A DNA stretch of 39,126 nt from Armatimonadota bacterium (GCA_025060305.1 JANXCD010000003.1:1-39126); one strand, 5' to 3'; positions 1,968 to 24,735 are shown, counted from the first letter of the stretch. Notes: generated from the sequence alone by a model not told the origin. A program made the numbers and translations.

Positions 1968-4691
1968 TTATCGCAATCTTAAAATTGTTTGGGCTTGAGT
2001 TTGTCGCCCATCATCTGTCTCAGCATAGATAACGACAGTGTAAATGCCCAAAGGCAAAGCCTCGTCGGATTTGCTACGACCGTTCCAGAAAACTGAACAT
2101 AACTGACTACTAACTTGCTCACTCTTTTCCCAAATAATTCGCCCTGTCAAGGAACGAATTTGGATTTGAACTTGCGCTGGCATAGTCACAGCAAATTGGA
2201 TATGAGCACCACGACCTCGTAGCGGAGTCACCTTGAGCCTTTGAACCCTAAGGGGCAATTGATCGGTTTGAAGGGCTACAACTTGTAAACGCTTGGGTTG
2301 CTGAGGTTGAGTTGAGATGTTAACTGAAGAAACTGAACGCAGTGACCATTTTTGGTTCGTCTCAGGGTCAACGAGCAAAAGTGAAACGGAGCGTGGAATT
2401 TGAACCAACCCATTAAACTGCAGTTTCACTTCTCCACCTGATGGATTGAGCAACTCCAAATTCCAAAGGATTTTGCCTTGAGGCGCTCTGATATCCATGC
2501 TCAAGGGCAATTCGGAACGACCAACACGAACAACACTGCTCACTTGGACAGAGCTAGGGGGAGGTGGAACTTTCGGCAAATCCAAACGGTCAAAATCGTT
2601 GCGAGCGTCTTTGCTGACACCAAGCCAAAGAGTGCTGTCTCTACCTGAAGCACTTATTGCAGTAACTTGAAATGCCCAACCTGAATTTGGTTGAAAAGTT
2701 TTAAGAGACTCTTGGGAGCCTCTTATTTGCCATGACCCCAAAGAGGCTGGCGGTCCGAAAACGATGTTGCCGTCAATTTCGCTGTAAAGCCAGAACCCCT
2801 GAAGTGGGTCTATGCGGAGATTGGGACCAAGTCTAATTAGCGAGTATTCGCCTCCATGAGGCGGAATTTTTGGGTCGTTTCGCCAAACGAAAATTGCTCC
2901 TTTGACCCAACCTCTTGCAACTGCTTCGTCAAAAGTGATAGTCAATGTTTCTGAGCCAAATCTTACTCCTTCACCTCTAAGCAAGACCTGCCAAGGGAAA
3001 GGATTTGAGAGCAAGTTCCAACCCCGCCTAATAGGCACTACAACAGGCTGGTCAGTTGGAAGGGAGAGAATGTTTTGTATAGGCAAATCAATTGATTGAG
3101 CCATCGGCATTCTAATCCAATAACCAAGACCAAGTTCCAAACGGTTTAACTGCAAGTCACGACGATAGTAAAGATAGTTTTGGGCTATTGAATCCCAAGC
3201 AGCCAGTTGAATTTGCTCGGGCAAAATGCCCAAAACTACCGATGGTTCAGGGTTAACGAAAAAGAAGGGAAAACCAATTAAGTTGAGACCAGAGTTGAGG
3301 TTCAAACTTAACACGAGGTTGCCATCTTGCCTTCTTAAAGGCAGAGATGGAACCACAACATAGGCTTTCACTTGTCTGACGCCAACTTGAGAGGTGAAGG
3401 CAGTGACGACAAGTTCTTTAACCCCTACCGTTGGCAAATTGACTTGGACTTGCCATGAAACTTTTTGCTCGCCTCCTGCTCCTATGGAAGGCAAAAATTT
3501 TGTTGCCGTCTCTCCCGGCGGGAAACTTAAACCTTGAGGAAGACCTAAAGTGACACTGACATTAGTCAAAGGATTATCGGCGAGGGAGTTGTAAACAAAA
3601 GCAGTGACAGTGAAAGGATTAGGAGAGACATAGGCTTGCTCAGTTTCAGGTGTGAAGGGGTCATCACCTAATAAAACTTGCAAAGGTTCAGGTTGAATCA
3701 CCCTCAAACTCATAGGACGACGGTAATCGCCAGGTCCAATATCAACTCCGAGAAAAGTGACTACTTCAACAGAGCCTCTTGCTGGCAAAGCCAAGCGATC
3801 CCAGTAAAGCCCAACAGCACTATCAGCAGAAGCAAGGGCATCATAAGGGTTAGGGGTGTAGTCAAATCCATAGCCTACCAACGCTGATTGGATGTTTGAA
3901 ACCAAAGCGAATAAAACTTTGTTTGGCAAAGGGCCTTCACCAGCGTTTAAAATGCCTTTGAGTTGTCCTATCGGCAAAAGGGGAAAAGCAAAGTAAAAGT
4001 CAGGTAGACCTTGAATTTTAGTATAGGCACGCTCATACTGAATAACTCCTGAAAAATTGGAGACAGCAAAATTTCCAGGTGTGTCTTGAGTGGCGTTGGC
4101 TGGCGGATTGAAGCCTGTGTCAAGAATAGCACCAAAACCAATGTTGCGAGAAAAGTTACTCCTGTTTGTGACTCTAATTCGGATTTCAACCATATTGCCA
4201 ATTATTGTGCATTCTCTCTCCACAACTAAAGTCGGATTTTCAGGCGAAGGCAATTGCCCTAAAGCATCAGACACATAAACAAGCCACCTTGCCCTTATCA
4301 TCGTAGGGAAACGCTCCACGACATTCAAAGTGTAGTATGCTGTGTCCAATTTATCTCCATCCCTCAAATCAAAATCAATTGTGCCGTAAGTCACAACATT
4401 GTCTTCAACATCTACGGGGACATTGTAAAGTCGCAAGATGAAAGCAGTATCATCTGGGTCAGTGATTGCCAAATTGTCATCTGAAGGTTTTGAAGGGTCG
4501 CCTTGGATAGTTAAGATTGTCATGTTGCCGTTTTGAGTGTTCACATTTACTTGCAGGTAGGGGTTGTTAATCGTGAGGATATTTTGACCCCACAAGGAGT
4601 TATCGGCTGCGAGAAAGCAAAAGAAAATCACAAACAATCCAGTCAAGTTCAAGGATACAAAGCGCTTAATTTCCAAATCTCTTGCTTTCAT
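1968..4691 (-). CDS. Secreted protein, 907 aa, with paired 'GW.ll..PFPW / GYW' modules and a C-terminal FlgD-like/T9SS-CTD-like domain
   Basis: Long ORF with an N-terminal hydrophobic signal (FVSLNLTGLFVIFFCFLAADNSLWGQ) and C-terminal ...IRSLTGRIIWEK...FWNGRSKSDEALPLGIYTVVIYAETDDGRQTQAQTILRLR. ATGA overlap with the upstream gene. Confidence 0.9.
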   Translation of the reverse strand: MKARDLEIKRFVSLNLTGLFVIFFCFLAADNSLWGQNILTINNPYLQVNVNTQNGNMTILTIQGDPSKPSDDNLAITDPDDTAFILRLYNVPVDVEDNVVTYGTIDFDLRDGDKLDTAYYTLNVVERFPTMIRARWLVYVSDALGQLPSPENPTLVVERECTIIGNMVEIRIRVTNRSNFSRNIGFGAILDTGFNPPANATQDTPGNFAVSNFSGVIQYERAYTKIQGLPDFYFAFPLLPIGQLKGILNAGEGPLPNKVLFALVSNIQSALVGYGFDYTPNPYDALASADSAVGLYWDRLALPARGSVEVVTFLGVDIGPGDYRRPMSLRVIQPEPLQVLLGDDPFTPETEQAYVSPNPFTVTAFVYNSLADNPLTNVSVTLGLPQGLSFPPGETATKFLPSIGAGGEQKVSWQVQVNLPTVGVKELVVTAFTSQVGVRQVKAYVVVPSLPLRRQDGNLVLSLNLNSGLNLIGFPFFFVNPEPSVVLGILPEQIQLAAWDSIAQNYLYYRRDLQLNRLELGLGYWIRMPMAQSIDLPIQNILSLPTDQPVVVPIRRGWNLLSNPFPWQVLLRGEGVRFGSETLTITFDEAVARGWVKGAIFVWRNDPKIPPHGGEYSLIRLGPNLRIDPLQGFWLYSEIDGNIVFGPPASLGSWQIRGSQESLKTFQPNSGWAFQVTAISASGRDSTLWLGVSKDARNDFDRLDLPKVPPPPSSVQVSSVVRVGRSELPLSMDIRAPQGKILWNLELLNPSGGEVKLQFNGLVQIPRSVSLLLVDPETNQKWSLRSVSSVNISTQPQQPKRLQVVALQTDQLPLRVQRLKVTPLRGRGAHIQFAVTMPAQVQIQIRSLTGRIIWEKSEQVSSQLCSVFWNGRSKSDEALPLGIYTVVIYAETDDGRQTQAQTILRLR

Positions 4692-7600
4692 CTCAACACC
4701 ACCACCCGCTGGGTTTCACGACCTAAATTGTCACGAGCCTGCAGGCGCAATAGCAAAGGCGTTGAAGGAAGTAATTGACCGTTATCGCTGCGACCATCCC
4801 AGACAAATTGAAATTGAGTTTTGGGTTCACCTGAACTTGGCAGGACTTTAAGCAAGCGGCCTGTCAAAGTCCTTATTTCGGCTTGAACTATTGCAGGTGC
4901 AGTTAAGCGACCAGTGATTAGGTAACTGCTGCTGCGCATCCTTGTGACTCTAATCTCAACTATGCGGAGCGGAATTTCATTAGCCATGCTTATGCTTAAA
5001 ATCAAGCGCTTCGTTCCAAGTTCATCGGTAGTTACTTTCCATTCACCATTTTCGTTAAGAGCAAACGCTCTGTGCGTTGACGGGTCAGACAAAATTGCTT
5101 GCGAGGATGAACGCCTCAAGGCTTGCCAACGAATTACGACAGTTTGGTTGGGTTGAGTTGATTGGACAATAAGCCACCATCTTTTAGGCTGGTTTGCTGG
5201 GATTTCCATCAAAGGTAGTTGAGCATTCCGTGAATTTTGACGATAAGCGATGAAACCTGCCCAAGCCGTTGTAGTTGGCGATGCAGGTGGCGCTGGAACT
5301 ATTTCTTTTCCGTCAGTGATGGCGAGACGATAAGGCGACTGAGAATTATCGCCCCAAACTTCCAACGAGATTAATTCCTTTGCTTTACTTTGTGTCTTTT
5401 GCCCTGCCAGCCTTGTAGCGGGAACTGGGCTGACAACCAAAGAACAAGGCTGGAACTTATAAATCCAATAACCAGTGAAAGGTTGAAGCAACCAATCTTC
5501 AACCTTAACCGAGATGTAAGAAGGAGGGTCAGAAGCAACTGAATAGTAAAAGACTCTGTTCATGATAACATTTTGCTGAACTGCTTCACTAAGGGAAAGA
5601 ACTTGACCTGATCCAAGCATTACCTGAACTGCTGACGAATTAACAGGGAAGGGGTAAGGGTTACCTACCTGCTGCCATCCTTCATCAAAAGCATTCAAAT
5701 CCCAAATCGGCTCATTGACAATTCGGAAGGGTTGAGAGCGGTCAACATCGGGAGCGTCAATAGCTAAAATGACATCTCTGAGCAGACGAACCCAATAAGC
5801 CCTACCAGGAGCCAATTGCTCAACAAACTCGCCTGAGCGAAGATAACCCTTTTGACCGGCAGCATTTATAACTCCCCATCGGGCAATAAGTGGCGGTGCT
5901 CCGAAGATGAAACTTGGTCTTCGCCTCTCAATGGGAACGCTTTCGTGTTGGAAATTGTAAGGTAAAGTAACCATGAAAGGCAAAGGAACTCCAGTCCTTG
6001 TTTTCGCTGCCCTAAGTTGTAGTGGAAGGATTGTAAAGTTTGCTGTTACAGGAAGGACACTAACCCCACCACGATTGCGGGCACGAACTTCAACGGTGTG
6101 AGCACCAACTGGAAGCGGTCTTGTAGGGTCAATAGGGTCAACTAAGGGCAAAAACAAAGTTTGTGTCCCTTCGTTGAAGAAAGGAGCGATATTGGCTATG
6201 GGCAAAGGAGTGCCATTGACCAAAACACTAATGGTTGATGGGTCAATATCGGCAAAAGCACCTAAAGGAGCGATGAACTGAACCTGCAAAGTCGGTCGTG
6301 TTGTGTATATTATTTCGCCTTCTCTCGGAGCCAAAATTATCCCTTGAGGTTGAGTGACTACTCTCAAAGTTGCTTGGACTGTTCCATCAGGTTGAGGGTT
6401 GATGTCAAGCACACGGACGCCACTGTCAATGCCAAGATAACTTAGGCTTGATGGACTGCTTAGCAAATCAAACCTTGTTTTATTGGTTCTGCCAGGGAAG
6501 GGATCGCCGTCATCGCCCCAATTCCCTCTTACAAATCCAGCAAAACCAAAACTTGTCCAATCAAAGGCTTGAGTTTGAATTGGTGCATCGTCCATATCGT
6601 TACGAGCATCAGCATCAACCAAGTCTACCGCTTTACGAGTTGGGTCCCTTTGCACTGCGTTTTGCATGTAAAGAACAAGGTCGCTCAAAATTGAACGGTC
6701 AATGTGGAAGATGTTCAAGCCACGACCTGGTAGCAAATTATCAAAACCTCTAAGTTGCCGATTAACTACTAAGAAGTATTCATCAGAAGTGGGACTTCCA
6801 AATGCCCAAAGCCTGTAAGCAACTGGCTGTTCCGCCCAAATCGGAATCGTCACTGTCCCAAATTCCCTTGTGACTTCAACAGGCGTGACCCAACCCCAAA
6901 CCAATTTGCACCAAGGGTCAGGATGACCTGGGTGACCGTCAGGACGGAAGGGGTTAAGAGTCACGCGACTAGGGTAAAAACGGTCACCTGTCGCCATTAA
7001 AGACCAAGCACCTGGGTCAACTTGGTTGATGTTATCAGGGTTGTAAAGGTCGGGCATGCCAAAAGCGTGACCGAATTCGTGAGCGTAAGTTCCGCAGCCA
7101 AAGAAAGTGTGAAGACTTTCAACTTCGTGGACAAAAGTGACGCATTCAACAACAACGCCGTCATTGGTAGTAGCCATCGGTGGAATGTTAGGCGAAATGA
7201 GGCGAGTCTGACCCCAAGTGACGGTAAACGCTCCATTTGTTGGGTCTTGAGTGTAATCGCCGTTAGGTGGGCGAGCATCAGGGTCGGAAGCAAAAGTCAA
7301 AAACAACAAATCTATCCGACCATCGCTATCGCTATCATAACGAGTGAAGTCAAGATTATCGTCAAGAGCCGAAAGCGCTCTTTGAACGATAAATCTTTGC
7401 ACCGCTGGCGATTGCAAGTTTTCAATGAAGGTGATATTTCCTTTTGTCGCAGTTTTAACATCAATTGTTATCGGACCGAAGGAATCGCCGACTAATCGGC
7501 ATCTGCCGTATGATGCTTCTTTGATGAAACTTGCCAACGAAGTTGAATTGGTTTCGTCAAAGAGAAGTCTGCGGTAGTAGTCGGCTGTGTGTTTTGGGTC

Positions 7601-7912
7601 AGGTGTTATGTCAGGCGAATTGGGTCTGATGAAGATGTGGATGCCACGAATTGTTCCCAACAGACCGCCCCTTGGGTAAAGGCTCGTTCCCAAACCGCCG
7701 TAAAAGTAAGAGGGCAATTCTCGCCCCACTTGTCGTTTCTGGAGTTGGGCAAAGGCACGAATTTTTTCTTCAGTAATGCCAAAATACTCCAACAAGTTTC
7801 TTTTGACTTGAGCAGTGCGACATCTGTAGGTTTGTCCAAACACTGCCCCTGTCAGCAAAAAGGTGCTCAAAACCAAATAAATCCAACAATTGCTCAATTT
7901 CTGCCATCTCAT
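4688..7912 (-). CDS. Secreted M6-family (immune inhibitor A-like) zinc metalloprotease with C-terminal FlgD-like domain
   Basis: Signal peptide-like N-terminus; zinc-binding motif in THFFGCGTYAHEFGHAFGMPDLYNPDN-type context (HEFGH); C-terminal IRTLTGRLLKVL...FVWDGRSDNGQLLPSTPLLLRLQARDNLGRETQRVVVLR. Confidence 0.9.
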   Translation of the reverse strand: MRWQKLSNCWIYLVLSTFLLTGAVFGQTYRCRTAQVKRNLLEYFGITEEKIRAFAQLQKRQVGRELPSYFYGGLGTSLYPRGGLLGTIRGIHIFIRPNSPDITPDPKHTADYYRRLLFDETNSTSLASFIKEASYGRCRLVGDSFGPITIDVKTATKGNITFIENLQSPAVQRFIVQRALSALDDNLDFTRYDSDSDGRIDLLFLTFASDPDARPPNGDYTQDPTNGAFTVTWGQTRLISPNIPPMATTNDGVVVECVTFVHEVESLHTFFGCGTYAHEFGHAFGMPDLYNPDNINQVDPGAWSLMATGDRFYPSRVTLNPFRPDGHPGHPDPWCKLVWGWVTPVEVTREFGTVTIPIWAEQPVAYRLWAFGSPTSDEYFLVVNRQLRGFDNLLPGRGLNIFHIDRSILSDLVLYMQNAVQRDPTRKAVDLVDADARNDMDDAPIQTQAFDWTSFGFAGFVRGNWGDDGDPFPGRTNKTRFDLLSSPSSLSYLGIDSGVRVLDINPQPDGTVQATLRVVTQPQGIILAPREGEIIYTTRPTLQVQFIAPLGAFADIDPSTISVLVNGTPLPIANIAPFFNEGTQTLFLPLVDPIDPTRPLPVGAHTVEVRARNRGGVSVLPVTANFTILPLQLRAAKTRTGVPLPFMVTLPYNFQHESVPIERRRPSFIFGAPPLIARWGVINAAGQKGYLRSGEFVEQLAPGRAYWVRLLRDVILAIDAPDVDRSQPFRIVNEPIWDLNAFDEGWQQVGNPYPFPVNSSAVQVMLGSGQVLSLSEAVQQNVIMNRVFYYSVASDPPSYISVKVEDWLLQPFTGYWIYKFQPCSLVVSPVPATRLAGQKTQSKAKELISLEVWGDNSQSPYRLAITDGKEIVPAPPASPTTTAWAGFIAYRQNSRNAQLPLMEIPANQPKRWWLIVQSTQPNQTVVIRWQALRRSSSQAILSDPSTHRAFALNENGEWKVTTDELGTKRLILSISMANEIPLRIVEIRVTRMRSSSYLITGRLTAPAIVQAEIRTLTGRLLKVLPSSGEPKTQFQFVWDGRSDNGQLLPSTPLLLRLQARDNLGRETQRVVVLR

Positions 7913-7974
7913 TCATTTTCCCTCCGTCTTTTGAGCAATTAAGGGCAAAGCAAACTTTACAAGTTTTTTCTTTT

Positions 7975-8022
7975 GGAGGGCAAGCCCTTAAGTTGTCAAA
8001 TTTTCGCTTGCCAAAACCCTCC
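7975..8022. repeat. Imperfect inverted repeat in the spacer between the M6 protease gene and the CsgG-like gene
   Basis: GGAGGGCAAGC (7975-7985) pairs with GCTTGCC-AAAA-CCCTCC (8006-8022), with a 4-nt bulge. Confidence 0.55.
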
Positions 8023-8085
8023 AGATTTTCGCAACCAGTTTTAGCCAAAATCTAATTGCAAACTTTTGAGCAAAGGTAATTCCCT

Positions 8086-9897
8086 TTAGCCTGGCGGGGG
8101 CGGTCCTATTAGGGCAGTGAATGAACGGACTTGGCTGAAAACCCAACCGCCTTCTGGTGGTCGGAAGTCACCTGAATATCGGTAACCGACCCGCCAATAC
8201 AAGGTTTGACCTGCCCTGAAACGACCAGAAAGGTTTTGATTTCTGATGACAATTTCTTGACCACCTATGTCAGGATTTGGGAGTCTATCACGCAAAGGAA
8301 TGGTAACTGTCTGAGCAGCAGGAAAAGCAGGGTTGTCGCTAACTTGGACAATGTATTCGTCAGCACCTTGCGCTGATACAAACCTGAAGGTAACATTTGC
8401 AATATTGACATCACCAGTAGGTTCAAGCAAATCGGCTTGAGATAACTGCACCAAAGGAGTAAATGGACCTACTGTGCTTGAAGAAAGGCTATAAACCAGC
8501 CTGAAAGGCTCAATCTCTTCATCAGAGCCTGGAGGCGGTGGGGACTGTCTAACAGCGTTCACGAAGCGAATGGCATACCAGTAATGCAGACCGGGTTGAA
8601 GTGGTTGGTGTATGTAAGAAACTTCATATTCAAAATCTCCACGATTGAACTCGTCTCCCGGGTCGCCAAGGCTGCGATTGATTCTGGGTAATCGGTCTGC
8701 TGGTGTGTCTTCATCAATTTCAATGGAGACAGTTCCGCTTTCAAAGAAGTCGCCATCGTTGTATTCCTTTACAACTTGCCCATCCAAGATTGCTATGGGG
8801 TAAGTGCCTTCAGTGTTGATACCTGGTGCTGTGTTACGATAGACTTCAATCGCTACGCAATCCCTTGCTGGACCGAAGATGAGTTTAACCTGTCTACCAT
8901 TGTTGATTACTATTCCAGTAAAGGAGGGCATCTCTGTTCCGCGCCTGCTCCGTCCGACAAGTGAACCTAAGACAGCAATGCCGAGGATAATAAGCAGAAT
9001 GGTTGGAACGACAGAACCTGCTCCTTTCCTAACTTTGCGAACAGGCGGTTCAGTAACACCAATTTTGGGGAAATCATAGACACCAATGACTCGGTCTGGG
9101 TATTGGATTGGCACGATTTCTTCTTTGATAACTCCAGAAGATTGCCTTGCTTCTGCGCTCTCTATTTGAATAAGTCCAGTTCTATTGCGAACCCAAAAAT
9201 CAGTTTCTGGGTCACGAACGAGCCGATAAACCCAAAATTGCATTCCCTCTCTAATTCCTTGATCATGACCTTTGTTGATGATAACTGTGTTTCCGACACG
9301 CTGCATGATTTGTCCTTCTGGAAGTTTTGTTGCTAAAACTTGTTGAGCAGCCTGATTGGCAGCAATGTTAATTGCTTGGTCAATCAAAATGTCTGGTTCT
9401 ACGCCAGGTCTTGAAGGTGTCGTTGCAAAAACATTTGCACCGTTAAGAGGGACTTCCAAATAACGGTCATGAAAAAGCATTTGAAGGTGAACGCTCCCTT
9501 GACCTGTCTTTTCGTTAACGAAGGTTTTAAGGACTTTGCCATAGACTACGAAGCGAGCCTCAAGTCTTTTAGCGAGAGCCGTCAATTGATTGGGTTGAAG
9601 GGGTGGGTTTAACCTCAATTCTGTAAGAGCGTTCTCAACTTCGCTTCGTGAAACAACTTCATATTTGTTCGTATCTGCTAATGCCAATGCAACTGCATCT
9701 GCTGCTTTCCTGCCTATGATAGGCGAAATGCCTTGGCTAACATTAAAATCCAAGATGGCAACTCTCGGTATAGGTGTTGGCTTTGTTGCTTCTTCAAACC
9801 TTACTTGGGCATTTCCTATTCCGACCCACTGAATTGTTAAAACTCCAACAAGAATTTGGGCGACCAGTCGCCAAATTTTTTGTTTTCGCCAACGCAT
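8086..9897 (-). CDS. Exported CsgG/TolB-like domain protein with internal TM segment and FN3-like region
   Basis: RVAILDFNVSQGISPIIGRKAADAVALALADTNKYEVVSRSEVENAL...LEARFVVYGKVL is typical of CsgG/TolB-N-like folds, followed by VVPTILLIILGIAVLGSLVG. Start moved from 9933 to ATG 9897, which has GGAGGGG upstream. Confidence 0.8.
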   Translation of the reverse strand: MRWRKQKIWRLVAQILVGVLTIQWVGIGNAQVRFEEATKPTPIPRVAILDFNVSQGISPIIGRKAADAVALALADTNKYEVVSRSEVENALTELRLNPPLQPNQLTALAKRLEARFVVYGKVLKTFVNEKTGQGSVHLQMLFHDRYLEVPLNGANVFATTPSRPGVEPDILIDQAINIAANQAAQQVLATKLPEGQIMQRVGNTVIINKGHDQGIREGMQFWVYRLVRDPETDFWVRNRTGLIQIESAEARQSSGVIKEEIVPIQYPDRVIGVYDFPKIGVTEPPVRKVRKGAGSVVPTILLIILGIAVLGSLVGRSRRGTEMPSFTGIVINNGRQVKLIFGPARDCVAIEVYRNTAPGINTEGTYPIAILDGQVVKEYNDGDFFESGTVSIEIDEDTPADRLPRINRSLGDPGDEFNRGDFEYEVSYIHQPLQPGLHYWYAIRFVNAVRQSPPPPGSDEEIEPFRLVYSLSSSTVGPFTPLVQLSQADLLEPTGDVNIANVTFRFVSAQGADEYIVQVSDNPAFPAAQTVTIPLRDRLPNPDIGGQEIVIRNQNLSGRFRAGQTLYWRVGYRYSGDFRPPEGGWVFSQVRSFTALIGPPPPG

Positions 9898-9964
9898 CTT
9901 CATTCCCCTCCGTCTTCTGTTTGAGCGTCGCAAGGGAACGAACCCTTGCGAACCTGCTCAATTT

Positions 9965-12900
9965 TTACCACCTCAAAGGCATGATTGCACGCACTTGCTC
10001 ACCTCGTTCGCCATAGGCACGGACTTCAAGCAAGTAGAAACCTTTGGGCAGACCGCTATTGAGGCTTCGGCTGTCCCAAAGAATTCGTTTTTCACCTGCA
10101 GCCATCAACTTGCGAGGTTGAAGGGAAGAGACAAATCTTCCTGTCAATGTAATCAAATTGCATTCAACTTCAGCAGTTTCCGTCAAAGTGAAGCGGACGA
10201 GTAATTGACCGCTGCGAGTGATTTCTGGTTTCAATCCCACAATTTTCAACCCACTTCCAACCTTTCGCTCAGCAATTATTCTCAACCTCTTTACTGCAAC
10301 ATTTCCCTCTGCATTCCTTGCCACGAAAGTATAGCCTCCTGTCGTCCTCATGTATCTTGCCTCACCAGTTTCCATGTCAACTAAAATCAAACTTACATCC
10401 GAAGGAACTCTCTCGTTTACTCCCTCCCAAGAGACAGTCAAGTTTTCATTGCCAGCAGTTGCTTCAACAATTATATCCCAAACTTGTGGTCTCGCCGAGG
10501 GCGCTCTTATGTCGGCGTAAAGCAAAGTTTCACTCCGACCAAAGGTTGCAATTGAACCAAAGGTGAACCAGTTATGAACCCATTGTCTCAGCGAAGGTGG
10601 AGTTAACAAGTCAAGTGAATCCAATCCGTCTTTCGCTTTCGGTGAGACTCCAATTTGGAGAGTGCTCAAAACTTTATTGTCGTTAGTCAATTTGATAGGA
10701 AGCAGCCATCCATCACCATCAAAATTTAGCCGACCGTCAGCCAAAGCCAATTTGCTCCTTGACGGTCTTTCGTTTACCGCTATTTGCCTTGTAGGAATGT
10801 TATCAATCAGTAAGATGACACCTTGTGGTGCTTGCACATAAACCCAATAACCTTTGAAAGGCTCCATGAAAACCGAAGCGACATAACCTGTGGCAAATTG
10901 GTTCAAGGCAAACAAAGTATCATTTATCCAACCTTGAATCGCCGCTTCACGAAGAGGCAATGTTTGACCAGTCGCTCTGTTAGTGACCCTTGTTCTTGTC
11001 CAGTCAACTTTGAAGGGGAAAGGTGTCCCAATGAGCCACCATCCCTGTTTGTCCAAAAGAAGTGAGAAGGGTTGGTCACTCGGAGCAGGTGTTCCTATTT
11101 GAGTGAAATCGGTAAATTGGTCAAATCGGACAAAATAGCCACGACCAAGATGAACCGCATCAGCAGGTGGAACAGGAAAACGAACATAACGACCGCCTCT
11201 GTATCCAGTCATCGGGTCAGTCAAGTTCGGATTAGTCTCCCAAGTGATGATTTGGTTAGTGCCAAGCAAACTGTTAATTGTTATGCCTGTGCCTGTGTAA
11301 TCGTAAGGGATACTGATAAGTTGGACTCCACGAGCAAAAGTATGTTGAGCACGAATTGAGAAATTGACATTTTGTGTTTCCGTCGCTTCTTGGACAACAA
11401 CACCAGTCCGCTCTGCTGGGATTGATGTGTAACCTGGTGCTCTCAACCTGACAGTATATGTTCCCAAAGGCACATTAGCAACCAAGTAATTTCGGCTATA
11501 ATTGCCTACAACGGTGAACTGAGCGTCAGTGACAACACTAATTACAACTTCCCCTGTTGCAGGTTGAATAACTTCAACGACTACTCCACCAACAGGAGTG
11601 CCATCAGCACGGGTTACACGACCAGAAATGCTTCCCGGTTGTGCTCTTGGCAAAGCCAAAGTAACTCTTGTTGTCGCCGCAGTTTGAACTTGAACGCCTG
11701 TGACACTTGCAGGTTTGTAGTTAGGAGCAGTTGCTTGGACAGAGTAAACGCCGACAGGGACATTCGCAATTGTGAAATTGCCTTGAGCGTCTGTTGTTGC
11801 GGAAGCAACGATAGTTGTGCCAGAAATCACTTCAACTATTGCATTGGCAATACCTTGATTAGTTTGGGCGTCAAGGACTTGACCTGCGATGGTTCCAGGT
11901 TCTCCTGGCAACTGGAAATCAACACCTGTGGTTTCTTGCCCTGCTCGGACAATAACTCCAGTTCTCGTCACGGAGGTGTGTCTTGGGGCGGAAGCAGTGA
12001 CTTCATAAGTGGCATTGGGCACTCCTTCAATTCTGTATGTTCCATCAGTTCTCGTTGTGGCTGAGTAAGTGCTGGGAATTCCAGGAGGTAAGACAATAGG
12101 GTTGCCTTGTTCGTCGGCGACTATTCTTGCTGTCACTGTCGCTCCAACGATTGGGGTCGTTCCATCAAGTTCTGTCACTCTGCCACTAATTGAGCCTGGT
12201 GGCAATTTAGTCATAGTGAAATCATTGTTTTGGCTGACAAAACTTGTCACATTATCGCCATCACTTACCCCTTCAACTGAGGTTCGCAGCAAACGGGATG
12301 TCCAACCAGGGACAGAAACTTCCAAATCGTAAATTCCAGTGTTAAGCCCAATAATTTGGTAAAAGCCTCCTCGTTGCGTGAGAGCGCCACCAAAGATGAT
12401 TGGCTGAGGTAAAAGGCTTCCTACTTGTGCCCTTACAGTGAAACCTTCCAAACCATTTCCTTGAGTGTCTACTACCCTTCCAGAAATAGTGCCTGTCCGT
12501 AGAAAGTCCATGATGTAGTTCATCAAAGTGTGACGGAAAACCAAACCTTCAACAAAAGTCGCCTGCCCAATGGTAGTGTTTTTGAAACCATTGTTTAGCG
12601 CTTCCATTGGGAAGAAGAAAGTGACAACTCGGTAATCGGTAGCAGGGTCACGATATTGGACAGCAGCATTTGTTCCACCTTGCAAGTAAGTGTAAGTTGC
12701 AAAAGCGCCTGCTAAAACATCTACCGTGTCCATGACCAATGCGTTCTCGCAACCGTCTCCTGTAAAACCAAAACTTGGGTTATATTGGCTGGCATTGATA
12801 GGTGGGTCGTAAGTAGTTGCATCATATCCAAAGCCAAGCAACTCAATTCCTGAAGCCGTCCCATGCCTTTCTTGGTCTGGGTCTCTAAGTTGACCGTCAA

Positions 12901-15478
12901 CAGTTGGTCTCTCTTCATTATAACCAAAACCTTGTCCCCAATCATGAATGCCTGAAGCAATCAGTCTACCCTGAAGTTTGTGCCTTTCGGCTCGGTAAAC
13001 GCTAATCAAATCAAGACTGTAGTCACCATAAAAGCCACTAACAACACGGGAAAAGCGAGCCTTCAAGTAGTTTGTCAAAAAGTCATTACTAACTTGTCCG
13101 TTTATGGTCAAAGCCCAACCCAAATCTTGTCCACTGGCTATAAACAATCGTCCACTTCTGCTCAAGAAAGATGCCAACTTGCCTTGAGTTACTGGGTCTT
13201 CAAGACTTCCTTTGTCAACCCAGATGCTGCCTATGTAGGGAGCGAGCCAAACTACTGCTCGTTCAGCATGCAAACGAGTTGTGTTCGTTATAGGGTCGGG
13301 GAAAGAGCGAGGCAAATAAAGGTTCAAAACTTCATCGGGCACAGGTCCTCGGCACAAAATCCTCCAAATTCCAACTAAATAGGAATCAGGGAAGGGACAA
13401 TGTGATTCGCTTCTCGGTATAACTCCTTTGTTAGGGTTGAAAGGCACAAACAAAGGTCGGGGCTTTATGTCGCCGAAATAATAAGTTTCGGTTGGGATAC
13501 CCGGATAGTTTATGAAAACCTCAAAGTTGCCAAGCCCTGATGCCCTTTGCGTCGTCCATTTTTGTCCGCAAGCGTAATCGCTAACAAAAAGCACATCCTT
13601 GTCGGCAGTAAAAGGTTTGGTAGTGCAACCAACGATGTTGTCATAGCCAACATTGGGAATTGCTTCAAGCGAACGATCGGCAATCAAAATGCGACCCTGT
13701 TGCGTCGTGATAATGGTAACATCAGGTGCAAGGTAATTGCCCGAACTAGGCATTACCATACTAAAAGTCCCTAAAGCCATGAAAGCAAAGATGGCAGGCA
13801 TATTTCCTGCTCTGTCAATAGGCACAATAGTCACATAATAGTCACGAGGTGTTAATGGCAACCTGATGCGGCGAGTGTAAATTCCGTCGTTAGCCCTTTG
13901 ATCGCCGTTTGTGCCGTTATCAAACAACTCAATAGCGTAAGGCTGAATTAATCGCCAATATCCGTCAACATCAGCACCTTCGCTGGCTTGATACATTAAT
14001 TCCACAGTATTGACCAAGCCAACTTCATCGCCAGTATCAGGATTGAAGTTTACGATGAACCAATCAACTTCGTGGGAAATTGCTGCTTGGTCACCTGGGT
14101 TTTGCTGGCTGGCTCCATCTGGGAAGCCTTCATTGTGCACTGCCCACAAAAACATCGGGTTATCGGCACTCTTAAAAACGGCGTAAACCCTGTCAACTCC
14201 ACTTTCTGGGTCATAAACATGTGCAGTCAAAGTTACAGTGTCGCCTGGCAAGTTGATTTTGGGTGTGATTTGGGGTAGCTTAGGGTTGCCAAATCTGTCA
14301 GAAAGCAGCGGAGGGAATATGTCAATGGAAGAGATGACCCAAATGTCCTCATTGCCATTGCGGTTCGTTACAAAAGCAATTCGCTCAATGTTGCCAGGGA
14401 TAACCGGAAAAGGCTCAACCGTTGATTGGAATTCTTGAGTTCGGTTGCCAGAAGGTGAAACTTGCCTAATATTTGACCCTTGATCATCGGAAAGAAAGAT
14501 GTCACGGTTACCATTACGGTCAGAAGTGAAAGCCAAACGGAAGCCACGACGACCCAAGTTAGTGCTTGGGTGCGTAAAGTAAACTGGGGCAGGTTCAGTG
14601 TCGTTTTGCCTACCACTTGTTATTGGTCTTTGATTCTGACCGTCGCCACGCATTACCCAAATGTGAAAGAAGGCTCCAGGTTGACCAGTAGTGGGATCAA
14701 GGTTGCTCTCGTAAAGGATACGACCGTCGGGCAAATAGGCTGGATTGCGGTTGACGCCTTGTGTAGTCAATTGGCGGATGCGACCTGTGTCCAAAGCCAC
14801 CAAATAAATCTGATTGTTTTGCTCAAAAGCGATCTCAGCACCCGATGGCGCAACGCTGATGCGGCGAACACCACGAAGCCCAAAAGTTCGCTGTTGAATT
14901 TGAACGGGAGAAGTCCTCAAGTTGGCTGTGTATATGTCGGTGACACCACCTGAACTGATAATGAAAGCGATAGTGATGCTGTCAGAAAACCAAGAAGGGG
15001 AAAGTTCGTCGCCTGTTGGGATGTTTGGTGGAATGTCTCTTTCTGGAATAGCAGGGCGAGCGTTGCTTCCATCAGGGCTCATAAGCCAGATTCGGAAGCG
15101 TTGTCCAGTTCCATCATTTCGGTCTAAGCGACCATTGCCATTGCTATCAACGCTATTAGTGCTGAAAGCGATAATGCGACCGTCTGGCGACCAAGTAGGC
15201 GTTCGCTCGCTACCAGGCGCTTCCGTCAGGGGTAATTCCTGCCCTCTCGCTTGACGAGTAGCCAAAGCACGCTTTTGCCATTCCTCTCGCAATTGATTTT
15301 CCAAACCAGGTCGTCGGTTTTGAAGGTATTGACGAAGTGCCATTTGCCATCTCTCAGAGGGAATTTGCAAATCCTTTTTTCGTGACGGGAATGGATTGTT
15401 TGCAAAAGCAAACCAAACTATTCCCGCCATGACAAAAACGCCAAAAAGAATTTTCAACCAGCGGTTTTCATTTTTCAT
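9965..15478 (-). CDS. Very large secreted protein (1837 aa): TolB-like beta-propeller, about four carboxypeptidase regulatory-like domains, paired GYW modules, C-terminal FlgD-like domain
   Basis: LTEAPGSERTPTWSPDGRIIAFSTNS (TolB/PD40 repeats); GTISGRVVDTQGNGLEG, GSISGRVTELDGTTPIVG, GTIAGQVLDAQTNQGIAN and GSISGRVTRADGTPVGG (CarboxypepD_reg-like); terminal LITLTGRFVSSLQ...ILWDSRSLNSGLPKGFYLLEVRAYGERGEQVRAIMPLRW. Confidence 0.9.
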   Translation of the reverse strand: MKNENRWLKILFGVFVMAGIVWFAFANNPFPSRKKDLQIPSERWQMALRQYLQNRRPGLENQLREEWQKRALATRQARGQELPLTEAPGSERTPTWSPDGRIIAFSTNSVDSNGNGRLDRNDGTGQRFRIWLMSPDGSNARPAIPERDIPPNIPTGDELSPSWFSDSITIAFIISSGGVTDIYTANLRTSPVQIQQRTFGLRGVRRISVAPSGAEIAFEQNNQIYLVALDTGRIRQLTTQGVNRNPAYLPDGRILYESNLDPTTGQPGAFFHIWVMRGDGQNQRPITSGRQNDTEPAPVYFTHPSTNLGRRGFRLAFTSDRNGNRDIFLSDDQGSNIRQVSPSGNRTQEFQSTVEPFPVIPGNIERIAFVTNRNGNEDIWVISSIDIFPPLLSDRFGNPKLPQITPKINLPGDTVTLTAHVYDPESGVDRVYAVFKSADNPMFLWAVHNEGFPDGASQQNPGDQAAISHEVDWFIVNFNPDTGDEVGLVNTVELMYQASEGADVDGYWRLIQPYAIELFDNGTNGDQRANDGIYTRRIRLPLTPRDYYVTIVPIDRAGNMPAIFAFMALGTFSMVMPSSGNYLAPDVTIITTQQGRILIADRSLEAIPNVGYDNIVGCTTKPFTADKDVLFVSDYACGQKWTTQRASGLGNFEVFINYPGIPTETYYFGDIKPRPLFVPFNPNKGVIPRSESHCPFPDSYLVGIWRILCRGPVPDEVLNLYLPRSFPDPITNTTRLHAERAVVWLAPYIGSIWVDKGSLEDPVTQGKLASFLSRSGRLFIASGQDLGWALTINGQVSNDFLTNYLKARFSRVVSGFYGDYSLDLISVYRAERHKLQGRLIASGIHDWGQGFGYNEERPTVDGQLRDPDQERHGTASGIELLGFGYDATTYDPPINASQYNPSFGFTGDGCENALVMDTVDVLAGAFATYTYLQGGTNAAVQYRDPATDYRVVTFFFPMEALNNGFKNTTIGQATFVEGLVFRHTLMNYIMDFLRTGTISGRVVDTQGNGLEGFTVRAQVGSLLPQPIIFGGALTQRGGFYQIIGLNTGIYDLEVSVPGWTSRLLRTSVEGVSDGDNVTSFVSQNNDFTMTKLPPGSISGRVTELDGTTPIVGATVTARIVADEQGNPIVLPPGIPSTYSATTRTDGTYRIEGVPNATYEVTASAPRHTSVTRTGVIVRAGQETTGVDFQLPGEPGTIAGQVLDAQTNQGIANAIVEVISGTTIVASATTDAQGNFTIANVPVGVYSVQATAPNYKPASVTGVQVQTAATTRVTLALPRAQPGSISGRVTRADGTPVGGVVVEVIQPATGEVVISVVTDAQFTVVGNYSRNYLVANVPLGTYTVRLRAPGYTSIPAERTGVVVQEATETQNVNFSIRAQHTFARGVQLISIPYDYTGTGITINSLLGTNQIITWETNPNLTDPMTGYRGGRYVRFPVPPADAVHLGRGYFVRFDQFTDFTQIGTPAPSDQPFSLLLDKQGWWLIGTPFPFKVDWTRTRVTNRATGQTLPLREAAIQGWINDTLFALNQFATGYVASVFMEPFKGYWVYVQAPQGVILLIDNIPTRQIAVNERPSRSKLALADGRLNFDGDGWLLPIKLTNDNKVLSTLQIGVSPKAKDGLDSLDLLTPPSLRQWVHNWFTFGSIATFGRSETLLYADIRAPSARPQVWDIIVEATAGNENLTVSWEGVNERVPSDVSLILVDMETGEARYMRTTGGYTFVARNAEGNVAVKRLRIIAERKVGSGLKIVGLKPEITRSGQLLVRFTLTETAEVECNLITLTGRFVSSLQPRKLMAAGEKRILWDSRSLNSGLPKGFYLLEVRAYGERGEQVRAIMPLRW

Positions 15479-16085
15479 GGGTGACCATCCTTTCGGTCAT
15501 TTCCCAATTTTGCCTTCTCCCGTCAGTGACGATTACCCGATGAGCACGGCGACTAAACTCAACATCGGACAATTGCCTAACCATTCTTTGCAAAATCGTC
15601 TCCCTTTTCACCCTCGTCTTACCCTTATCTCTCGTTCCTTGTTCGCTCTTTTCCATTCGCTTTAGACGCTCTCTAAAACTTGCCGTCAACACCCAAACCT
15701 CGTTGACGAAAGGTCGCAATCCCATTTCAAACAAAACTGCAGCCTCAATTGCAATCAACTTTATCCCTCTACCCTTCCACTCTTTGAGAGCAGCGTCAAT
15801 CATGTGACGCATTTGAGGGTGTGTCAAGCGGTTAAGCCTTTTAAGTGCTGAGGGATTTTGAAAAACCCATCGCCCAACTTTTCCTCTGTCAAGTTCGCCA
15901 GAAGAAGTTAGGATTGTCTTTCCGAAAGTTGCCACCATTGACCTTAAGACTGGGCTTCCCCTTTTCACCAACTTACGATTTACTTCGTCGGCAGTGACAG
16001 TTTTGATGCCAAATTTTTGCATTTGCCTGATAAGCGTTGTTTTACCTGCACCCAAACCACCAGTGATTCCGATAACTTTTTTCAC
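15468..16085 (-). CDS. coaE: Dephospho-CoA kinase
   Basis: VIGITGGLGAGKTTLIRQMQKFG (P-loop), ITADEVNRKL-like motif and LTHPQMRHMI. Start re-assigned to GTG 16085 (GGAGGT upstream) rather than 16181, which would overlap rpsA. Confidence 0.9.
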   Translation of the reverse strand: MKKVIGITGGLGAGKTTLIRQMQKFGIKTVTADEVNRKLVKRGSPVLRSMVATFGKTILTSSGELDRGKVGRWVFQNPSALKRLNRLTHPQMRHMIDAALKEWKGRGIKLIAIEAAVLFEMGLRPFVNEVWVLTASFRERLKRMEKSEQGTRDKGKTRVKRETILQRMVRQLSDVEFSRRAHRVIVTDGRRQNWEMTERMVTHEK

Positions 16086-16110
16086 TCTATCACGACCTCC
16101 AAACCAAATT

Positions 16111-17322
16111 TTAATCTTGTTGTTTTCGCTCTTCTTTTTTTCCTTGCTGCGTTGAAGTTCCCAAATTGGGAAAAACATCACCTAAGGTAATTTGAGGCGA
16201 TGGTTGCTGTTCCATGTATTGGCGTAATTCAAGCCTTTCTCGCTCTTGGGCGACTTGCCTCATGCTGAGCAAAATCCTTCGCTTCTCCGTCTCAACTTGG
16301 TAAACTTTCGCTTCAATTTCCTGACCGACCTTGACAATATCTTCTGCCCTAACATTTCTTCTCGTTGAAAGTTCGTTGTTCGGAATAACCCCTTCAATGC
16401 CTGTTGGCAACTTAACAAAAACACCAAAAGGGACGATGCGAGTTACTACTCCTTTGACTTTTGAGCCAACAGGATAATCTTGAGGTGCTGTTCTCCAAGG
16501 ATCTGGCAACAACGGCTTTAGGCTCAACGAAATTTTTGGACCATCAGGTTCAAAGCCTATGACTGCGACTTGAAGCTTTTGTCCTTCCTTGACCACTTCT
16601 GATGGATGGTTCACTCTTGTCCACCCCATTTCGCTGACATGGAGCAATCCATCAACGCCGCCTAAGTCAACGAAAGCACCGAAATCGGCTATGCGCCTCA
16701 CAGTGCCCTCCAAAATTGCACCTTCATACAACTTAGCCAAAGTTTCCTGCCTTCTACGCTCACGGTCTTCGTCAAGGGCAATTCTGTTGGAACAAAGGAC
16801 ACGCCTTTTGTCTCTATCAATCTCAATGATTTTGATTTTTATCGTACGACCGATGAAATGTTCCAACCTCCAACCAGAAGGGATGACAACTTGTGATGCT
16901 GGGACAAAGCCATCAATACCAAGGTCAACGATCAGACCGCCTTTAATTCTGTCTTTCACCATCACTTGCAAAATTTCTCCATTTTCAAAGGCTTCCTGAA
17001 TTCGCTTCCATGCCCGCTCGTAGTCTGCCCTTCGCTTTGAAAGCAAAACCATCCCTTCCGTCTCTTCTGCTTTTGATTCAGGTCGCAAAACATAAACTTC
17101 AATCTTTTCACCTATTTTCGCCTCTTCAAGGTGATTACCGCCCCACTCACTGGCAGGTATGAAACCTTCAGCCTTACCGCCGATGTCAATGAGAACTCCG
17201 TCCTGACGAACTTGGACGACAAGACCTGTTAAAATTTCGCCAGTGCGAACAGGTTGCATCGCTTTGAAGGCTTGCATCATCTCGTCCATGTTCTCTGCTG
17301 GCATAGTCGTTTGTTCGTTCAT
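16111..17322 (-). CDS. rpsA: 30S ribosomal protein S1 (four S1 RNA-binding repeats)
   Basis: GEILTGLVVQVRQDGVLIDIGGKAEGFIPASEW; GGLIVDLGIDGFVPASQV; GTVRRIADFGAFVDLGGVDGLLHVSEMGW; GVVTRIVPFGVFVKLPTGIEGVIPNNEL. Start at ATG 17322, preceded by AGGGGGAG. Confidence 0.92.
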   Translation of the reverse strand: MNEQTTMPAENMDEMMQAFKAMQPVRTGEILTGLVVQVRQDGVLIDIGGKAEGFIPASEWGGNHLEEAKIGEKIEVYVLRPESKAEETEGMVLLSKRRADYERAWKRIQEAFENGEILQVMVKDRIKGGLIVDLGIDGFVPASQVVIPSGWRLEHFIGRTIKIKIIEIDRDKRRVLCSNRIALDEDRERRRQETLAKLYEGAILEGTVRRIADFGAFVDLGGVDGLLHVSEMGWTRVNHPSEVVKEGQKLQVAVIGFEPDGPKISLSLKPLLPDPWRTAPQDYPVGSKVKGVVTRIVPFGVFVKLPTGIEGVIPNNELSTRRNVRAEDIVKVGQEIEAKVYQVETEKRRILLSMRQVAQERERLELRQYMEQQPSPQITLGDVFPNLGTSTQQGKKEERKQQD

Positions 17323-17553
17323 CTTTTTCGCTCCCCCTTGATGAAGCACATTAGCCAGATTCCTGGTCACTTGCACCCTTCCTTTGATTTTTCTTTTAAG
17401 ACTTACACATTTGCGTGCTGAACTTGCGGTGTCTCACTTTTTGCAATCGGTTGCCAAAAAAATTTTGTCATCTGGTTGCAAATTTTCAACTCCCATTCCG
17501 CGCAAATTCATTAGGAATTCAGTAACCTAACTGAAATTGGCTCGTTGAAAGTT

Positions 17554-23430: not shown

Positions 23431-24735
23431 TCAATCTCCGACGATGCGAATAGTGGTGCACAAAGAGAATCGGCGTCCACCGTTTTCATAGACAAGTTCG
23501 GCAAAGGCTGCTGCATAGCCACTTTCTGGTTTTTGCAAAAGGAATTTCACTTCCTCTCCTTCAAGGGCAAGGGTTTTGCTTGACCATTTTGCATCTCGGA
23601 AATCTTTGCTGGATGACTGGGCTGTCCAAATCATAATTTCCTTTGGCATCGGTTCTGAGCGGATGGTGAGAATTTGGTTTGAGTTCTCGCTTTTCCAGTT
23701 CCAACTGACCTTAGGAAACTCAATGCGACCAGCAAGGTATTGGAAGAAGGCAACAAGTGTCCTCAAAACTCTGTCAATCCCACCTTCAAGCCCATGACCT
23801 GCGTTGGGCACATAAAGGATGTGTTTTTCGCCAGGTAAGTCGTAGAAGTAAAAGTTGGCTGCAGTGAGCGCCCAGTAGCGGTCATTTGTGCCATTGATGA
23901 TGAGTTTGGGCATCTTCAATCTATCACGGTAAAAGTAAGGGTCAACAATTTGAACGAGTTCTCGTGCCTTGCCATTACCGACAACAAGGTCAACAAGACC
24001 ACGCTTAACATACTCGTTTATTTGCTCGCTGTAAGTTCCGAAGACTTCCTTCTGGTGCTTCATTTGTGCTGGAATGTTCAAGTTATCGTAAACGATGGGT
24101 GCTATTCCTTTAACCCGATTGGGGTCTGCAACAGCGGTAAGCCAACTCGTCCAGCCACGCTTTGACGCTCCAGTAACAAGGAAGCCATTGACTTTTGTGT
24201 TTAATTCCTTTTCTGCAAATTGCTGAATTGCATCCATCGCTTTGACAGCGCTTTTGGTCATAGGTAGCAGGCAAGCCCATTCTCTATCGCCAGTCTCTAA
24301 AACCTTGACGAAGGTGTGGGCAATTAAATCGTCTTCAACGAGACCTTCAAAAAGCGGTTGATTTGGAACGGCAAACAAGACAGAGACGATGGCTTGAATT
24401 TGAGCGGCTATGGTAGAAGCGAGCAACCTCATTTGGATGTCTCCTCTGCTCTCTGTGCTTCCACCAGCGATGACCAAAACAGACAAATCCGTTGTGACCT
24501 TAGAGGGTTGAATGACAAGGAGAGTGTGCCGCCAATTGATTTCTTTCCAACGCTGAGATGTCAATTTGAGTTCGTAGATGGTGACGCCCAAAGGTGTTTC
24601 GCTTTTGCCCTCTAAAACCCAAGAGAAGGCTTCATCATCACGGTTAACATAGTCCAAAAGCAAAGGCTTTTGTTGCTGACCATAAATCTCAAGCAAAATC
24701 ACAAAGCAAACCAAAATCAACCAAAAGCAACGCAT
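23431..24735 (-). CDS. PhoPQ-activated pathogenicity-related (PqaA-type) alpha/beta hydrolase-like secreted protein
   Basis: Signal-like N-terminus; VTGASKRGWTSWLTAVADPNRVKGIAPIVYDNLNI; PKLIINGTNDRYWALTAANFYFYDLPGEKHILYVPNAGHGL. Confidence 0.85.
   Translation of the reverse strand: MRCFWLILVCFVILLEIYGQQQKPLLLDYVNRDDEAFSWVLEGKSETPLGVTIYELKLTSQRWKEINWRHTLLVIQPSKVTTDLSVLVIAGGSTESRGDIQMRLLASTIAAQIQAIVSVLFAVPNQPLFEGLVEDDLIAHTFVKVLETGDREWACLLPMTKSAVKAMDAIQQFAEKELNTKVNGFLVTGASKRGWTSWLTAVADPNRVKGIAPIVYDNLNIPAQMKHQKEVFGTYSEQINEYVKRGLVDLVVGNGKARELVQIVDPYFYRDRLKMPKLIINGTNDRYWALTAANFYFYDLPGEKHILYVPNAGHGLEGGIDRVLRTLVAFFQYLAGRIEFPKVSWNWKSENSNQILTIRSEPMPKEIMIWTAQSSSKDFRDAKWSSKTLALEGEEVKFLLQKPESGYAAAFAELVYENGGRRFSLCTTIRIVGD

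Follow-up and report, generated by a model that had tools for sequence, protein, structure and literature searches.

The window, that is, the whole 39,126-nt stretch of Armatimonadota DNA that was analysed, comes from a genome that is 63% complete, and positions 1,968-15,478 were the region under study. Three large exoprotein genes were found at the positions given in the original prediction, all on the minus strand: P0001 (1968-4691, 907 aa), with a signal peptide and an N-terminal half of unknown kind; P0002 (4688-7912, 1074 aa), an M6 metalloprotease that exceeds the TIGR03296 cut-off and keeps the HEFGHAFGMPD metalloprotease motif intact; and P0003 (9965-15478, 1837 aa), which holds a PD40 propeller, a choice-of-anchor X stretch and four CarboxypepD_reg repeats. 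Each of them ends in a common tail, and the start of P0001 overlaps the stop of P0002 by 4 bases. The same range also contains a fourth co-oriented gene, devoid of the tail, P0004 (8086-9933, minus strand), coding for a CsgG-like protein of 615 aa that passes the CsgG profile cut-off (26.5 bits vs 20.8; E 4.8e-6). At 1-1812 on the same strand lies P0005, 604 aa or longer since it is cut by the contig end, in which a CsgG/LpoB-like N-terminus, a hydrophobic helix and fn3 repeats were recognised. Both CsgG-like genes are conserved partners of the locus, and its conserved upstream flank is made up of coaE (dephospho-CoA kinase, 15468-16181) and an S1-repeat protein gene (rpsA-like, 16111-17376), again on the minus strand. 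Additionally, a PhoPQ_related gene (PF10142) was observed at 23431-24735, whose homologue in another genome (L178_05 in G084) is found directly downstream of an LptD-like ORF.

Architecture of the shared tail

It had been proposed that the three proteins end in the same order of parts, and pairwise BLASTP of their last ~450 residues established their homology, with alignments spanning ~410-470 columns and E-values of 9e-27 (P0001-P0003), 1e-23 (P0002-P0003) and 2e-19 (P0001-P0002), a likeness that, judged by alignment, is far beyond chance. The lobe motifs, the common linker (LQIGVSPKAKDGLDSLDL / LWLGVSKDARNDFDRLDL) and the endings LRLR, VVLR and PLRW were all recovered as quoted, and the tail runs from a lobe pair through a beta-rich middle to a FlgD-like end. 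In P0001, the paired-lobe domain, without a Pfam match, was delimited by tail alignment to residues 458-650 (2742-3320; this and all following tail features on the minus strand), the middle domain, which corresponds to a beta-rich part of the P0003 structure prediction, to about residues 651-813 (2253-2741), and the FlgD/T9SS-CTD-like terminal domain ending in LRLR to 1971-2252 (FlgD_ig E 3.8e-4, below cut-off). In P0002, the corresponding parts were placed by alignment at residues 644-836 (5405-5983) and about 837-980 (4973-5404), followed by the terminal domain ending in VVLR at 4691-4972 (FlgD_ig E 4.8e-3, below cut-off). In P0003, the modelled lobe pair covers residues 1378-1562 (10793-11347), the linker and beta-rich middle domain, set by alignment and model, about residues 1563-1743 (10250-10792), and the terminal domain ending in PLRW, assigned by homology and model, 9968-10249. 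In the same genome, the tail profile retrieved these three proteins plus two others of 1003 aa (G000:C281) and 1790 aa (G000:C110).

The module had been put forward as undescribed, which holds only in part. The last ~90 residues belong to the known FlgD_ig/T9SS-CTD superfamily, given that 35 of 38 diverse terminal domains matched PF13860 (FlgD_ig), the best at 1.2e-15; thus, a match to known Pfam domains, which the original prediction had named as an observation against it, was found for the terminal ~90 aa and for none of the lobes. The 27-bit FlgD_ig cut-off was exceeded by 12 of 16 full-length tail proteins scanned among the relatives, and in the window proteins the domain stays under it (20.8 and 17.3 bits, and no match in P0003), so that their membership rests on homology. 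Other models were also matched by the 38 domains, namely PorU (27/38), TIGR04183 (15/38 at E <= 0.01, best 3.5e-5) and PorZ (11/38). PF18962, the T9SS CTD profile, found nothing in the window's own genome and only one of the 38 members (E 0.0099), and by that profile the terminal domain would not be counted in the T9SS type A CTD family. Its top PDB sequence matches were FlgD chains (7eh9, 2.5e-12), followed by the PorU C-terminal domain (0.002). FlgD is the flagellar hook protein, and, since FlgD_ig occurs there too, the fold alone proves nothing; the tail domain differs from that of FlgD in that it follows a lobe pair, ends secreted proteins and carries a nearly fixed last arginine.

The lobe pair is the part that corresponds to neither a Pfam entry nor a solved fold. 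When its structure was modelled in P0003, as the original prediction had suggested, one compact domain was obtained (pLDDT 91.9, pTM 0.86). The lobe pairs of 15 members gave no meaningful Pfam match, and no solved relative was found in the PDB either by sequence or by fold. The sole fold match below 1e-3 was A0A8D9C8P8 (E 1.3e-4, TMq 0.56), a protein of 587 aa from an uncultured marine phage, annotated as 'putative hemin binding protein'; a tblastn search of one lobe pair against phages and plasmids returned chance matches only. Repeats of the type GWNLIS...GYQV, which we take to resemble the lobes, are presumably carried by T9SS proteins of marine Bacteroidota. The full tail was modelled with a lower pLDDT (78.6), and its fold search yielded generic beta-sandwich chains, with PorU (6za2) among the matches.

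Distribution and C-terminal position of the tail

By profile search, the tail was detected in 237 of 251 Armatimonadota genomes and in 5/5 of the window's class. The terminal domain alone was found 1-13 times per genome in 12 of the 13 genomes scored in depth, and not at all in the thirteenth. As to whether the module is always C-terminal, the answer was affirmative almost without exception: in 104 of 105 distinct proteins with complete 3' ends, the terminal domain lies no more than 5 residues from the stop. The last residue of the 105 distinct tail proteins was R in 94, P in 4, K in 3, W in 3 and E in 1, compared with a terminal R in 50 of 400 other ORFs of the same loci; in the first 20 loci, the corresponding counts were 56/60 and 11/107. 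Since the proteins behind these terminal-R counts are related, the counts are not independent, although the tails share only ~25% identity. The terminal Ig domain is the last part of its proteins, and their final residue is nearly always a free arginine.

The tail was expected on unlike cargo with a Sec-type N-terminus; the cargo is indeed varied, and the N-terminus appears to be of the Sec type in most of the proteins. A hydrophobic N-terminus was scored in 78 of 98 tail proteins vs 148 of 360 others by a crude hydrophobicity screen, several failures of which show plain signal peptides or wrong or over-long predicted starts. Taken together, the alignments indicate one homologous unit carried by unlike secreted proteins. 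It was also observed that one tail gene contains an in-frame stop (L177, G004:C104:99209-100872), possibly as a pseudogene or an assembly error, and that another, in G045 (L080_06/07), is split in a similar manner.

The conserved locus, its CsgG-like proteins and its putative barrel

In 20 fetched loci, the gene order was largely conserved, with insertions and losses. It usually begins with the S1-repeat protein gene and coaE and continues with a propeller/CarboxypepD giant bearing the tail, a CsgG-like gene, a protease or unknown protein with the tail, a 907-type protein with the tail, a second CsgG-like gene, sometimes with fn3 and Big_1, and a barrel gene. In the window, this order can be followed as far as P0005, the second CsgG-like gene, at which the contig stops. 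M6 fills the protease slot in G072 and in the class of the window, and an S8 subtilase does so in seven other loci, while the tail proteins found elsewhere in the phylum carry S8, LVIVD propellers or no known domain. In G084 and G195, the locus is reduced to three adjacent genes, for a CsgG-like protein, a single tail protein and the barrel. A tree of 60 tails sorts by locus slot, the S1 tails forming a single clade (99/96), which indicates an early triplication of the tail family. The tail-bearing genes belong to a locus, ancient and found throughout the phylum, that also encodes CsgG-like proteins and an apparent outer-membrane barrel. In some lineages, a Peptidase_C11-like (clostripain-like) gene was observed between the CsgG-like gene and the protease-slot tail protein, over the Pfam cut-off at L082:9153-10325, below it at L088:8948-10123 and recognised by eye in L008_03; C11 peptidases belong to clan CD, the clan of PorU.

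In both CsgG-like proteins, a hydrophobic helix separates the CsgG-like domain from an fn3-like part, and a 19-residue helix screen was passed by 27 of 29 P0004 homologues and 4 of 5 P0005 homologues (L075-L094, L179-L197). With such a helix, the two halves of each protein would be separated by a membrane. Neither of the two CsgG-like proteins shows a lipobox.

The composition of the locus is not uniform. In family f22 (G061, G029 and G133), the giant (L192_09, L193_11 and L197_07) stops after the lobe pair, without the FlgD-like domain and without a terminal arginine, with the CsgG-like genes and the barrel retained alongside, and terminal lobes lacking the FlgD-like end were also found in L021 and L023; the lobes are terminal in G004:C148 as well. 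Since the locus persists in f22, it can be maintained without the FlgD-like end, which weakens the case for this end as the essential signal. In families f20 and f28, the barrel is present and no tail was recognised. In one tail-less family, the ORF beside the CsgG-like gene (L190_10, G108) enters a masked (N) stretch, so that a tail may have been missed there. These observations bear on an alternative in which the lobes and Ig domains would serve as a structural or docking module, holding the locus products in one extracellular or envelope complex, where the C-terminal place would reflect domain order and no sorting signal would be read. This would agree with the inheritance of tail-protein and partner genes as one locus, the few tail copies per genome, the lobes-only tails with the same partners in f22 and those of L021 and L023, and the generic beta-sandwich chains of the full-tail fold search. 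However, a mere end-cap would not need a free C-terminus kept to the last residue (94/105 R), and tails also occur on other cargo that is encoded away from the locus. We regard the docking reading as somewhat unlikely.

The barrel protein, of ~660 aa, bears an N-terminal Big_1/Invasin_D3 (invasin-type Ig) domain and was found in 196 of 201 genomes. Of 61 genomes tabulated, 38 have it no farther than 25 kb from a listed tail gene, and often no farther than 1.5 kb; many of the remaining barrels are on other contigs of fragmented assemblies, and the two are truly unlinked in G089, which is a single contig. The genome of the window has its barrel gene on contig C227 (6219-8240) and an LptD-like ORF beside LptF/G on C259. 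The barrel profile picked up the LptD-like ORF adjoining LptF/G in G002 (HMM, E 2.5e-6), and hhalign related the barrel family to the LptD-like family at 96% probability and E 3.5e-9, in an alignment that included one non-LptD sequence. By these profile comparisons, the locus barrel is a paralogue of the organism's own LptD. The last residue is aromatic (F/Y/W) in 24 of 30 barrels, as expected of an outer-membrane barrel, and both this C-terminal end and the homology to LptD point to the protein being one. On the other hand, direct comparison with E. coli LptD was not significant (P 0.08), and the Pfam LptD model does not recognise the locus barrel. That the barrel is the organism's LptD was considered and rejected, since its gene is separate from an LptD-like ORF that adjoins LptF/G in G084, G002 and G000 (L178_04, L185_03 and L181_04, respectively); its N-terminal invasin-type domain is a further difference. 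Pfam LptD (PF04453) exceeded its cut-off in 0/17 genomes despite such ORFs, which indicates that the standard model misses the LptD of this phylum.

Given its kinship with LptD, the barrel may export glycolipid rather than protein, and a glycolipid role with the tail proteins attached is the main mechanistic alternative. In its full form, the LptD paralogue would be the core of a machine that exports and attaches glycolipid or polysaccharide, and the tail proteins would be parts or acceptors of this machine, not its cargo. PorU and PorZ carry CTDs in T9SS, and the terminal domains match the models of both (27/38 and 11/38). Similarly, T9SS cargo is joined to anionic LPS (PMC5562754), and the tail protein of the locus directly adjoins the barrel in G084 and G195. 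However, no conserved glycosyltransferase or ABC exporter was present among the annotated ORFs of the fetched loci, where part of the flanking ORFs was annotated, and genomes with up to a dozen CTD matches bear tails on unlinked proteins. As a complete account, such a machine seems improbable to us.

Relation to T9SS and the proposed role of the tail

The original prediction had left room for a T9SS-like route and asked whether tail-bearing genomes encode PorU, PorV and Sov homologues. The markers surveyed do not support a T9SS. SprA_N (PF14349) was found in 0/251 genomes and GldM (TIGR03517) in 0/201, both being weak negatives since the two profiles were silent in control genomes too. The PorV family (NF033709) exceeded its cut-off in 1 of 201 genomes, with sub-threshold and mostly partial matches in 78 more, and the C25 peptidase (PF01364; PorU-type sortase) is patchy, being found in 45 of 201 genomes and in 0/5 of the window's class, where the tail is present in 5/5. 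T9SS as the route was rejected on this marker distribution, with the silence of the SprA and GldM controls kept in mind. In agreement, a survey reported T9SS only in Bacteroidetes, with Armatimonadetes not mentioned (PMC4793230). A divergent T9SS, in which SprA, PorV and PorU would have escaped detection and would export the FlgD-like end as a type A CTD, could draw on the TIGR04183 and PorU matches of the terminal domains and on the C25 peptidases of 45 genomes; set against the missing or rare markers, the class with tails and no C25, and the reported confinement to Bacteroidetes, it is very improbable.

This distribution lowers the probability that the route is a T9SS, not that it works like a CTD system. 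The tail shares with the T9SS type A CTD (TIGR04183/PF18962; RgpB, PorU, PorZ) an Ig-like beta-sandwich that ends secreted proteases and large exoproteins, and the profile matches of the Armatimonadota terminal domains are weak but repeated. Both have a basic residue near the end, although in T9SS CTDs it is a lysine that lies inside the last strand (PMC11285876) and in the tail an arginine at the final position. The tail differs in that, by sequence, FlgD_ig is a closer match for its end than the T9SS CTD model is, in that a lobe pair and a middle domain precede this end, and in its few copies per genome, as well as in the machinery, since neither SprA nor GldM was found (controls silent) and PorV exceeded the cut-off in one genome. 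With T9SS type B CTDs, whose genes often adjoin those of their cognate barrels (PMC12618676), it shares a module longer than the last domain and a dedicated barrel gene nearby or immediately downstream; however, the type B barrel is PorP/SprF, that of Armatimonadota is an LptD paralogue with Big_1, and no T9SS translocon was found. By analogy, the tail would work like a T9SS CTD with a cognate barrel, which is not the same as being shown to be a T9SS.

We therefore favour, with a confidence just short of even, the reading of the tail as a C-terminal surface-targeting or anchoring module of Armatimonadota served by its locus, of which the mechanism, including sorting or anchoring by the tail itself, is inferred. 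The tail proteins would be carried out of the cytoplasm by Sec, and the tail would fold in the periplasm, where its free C-terminal strand would be recognised by the outer-membrane proteins of the locus. The barrel and the CsgG-like proteins would then pass the tail to, or hold it at, the cell surface, and the proteases and propeller giants would thereby be displayed outside; the passage might be formed by the LptD-type barrel, by the CsgG-like proteins or by neither, and no energising or pulling component was identified in the analysis. A role of the extreme C-terminus would have a precedent in RgpB, whose export is blocked by removing two C-terminal residues (PMC11285876). Each genome has few tail proteins (0-13 CTD matches across 13 genomes, with only one in some), as would be expected of a machine part more than of a general signal. 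Additionally, the lobes-only tails of f22, the tail-less f20 and f28 and the single-tail genomes point to a complex specific to the locus more than to a general export signal and hold confidence in the sorting reading below one half. A more specific version, in which Armatimonadota would possess a display system of their own, with a pre-radiation origin independent of T9SS, whose LptD-derived Big_1 barrel and CsgG-like partners would read the lobe-pair/FlgD-like module by its free terminal arginine, is rather unlikely.

In the literature consulted, no description was found of how Armatimonadota place proteins on their surface. The phylum-wide coupling of a T9SS-CTD-like tail to an LptD paralogue would be a candidate for a secretion or anchoring route that has gone unrecognised. 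If this is true, an LptD-type barrel would have been recruited to protein display, which would help to explain the occurrence of FlgD-like C-terminal domains in a phylum without a recognisable T9SS.
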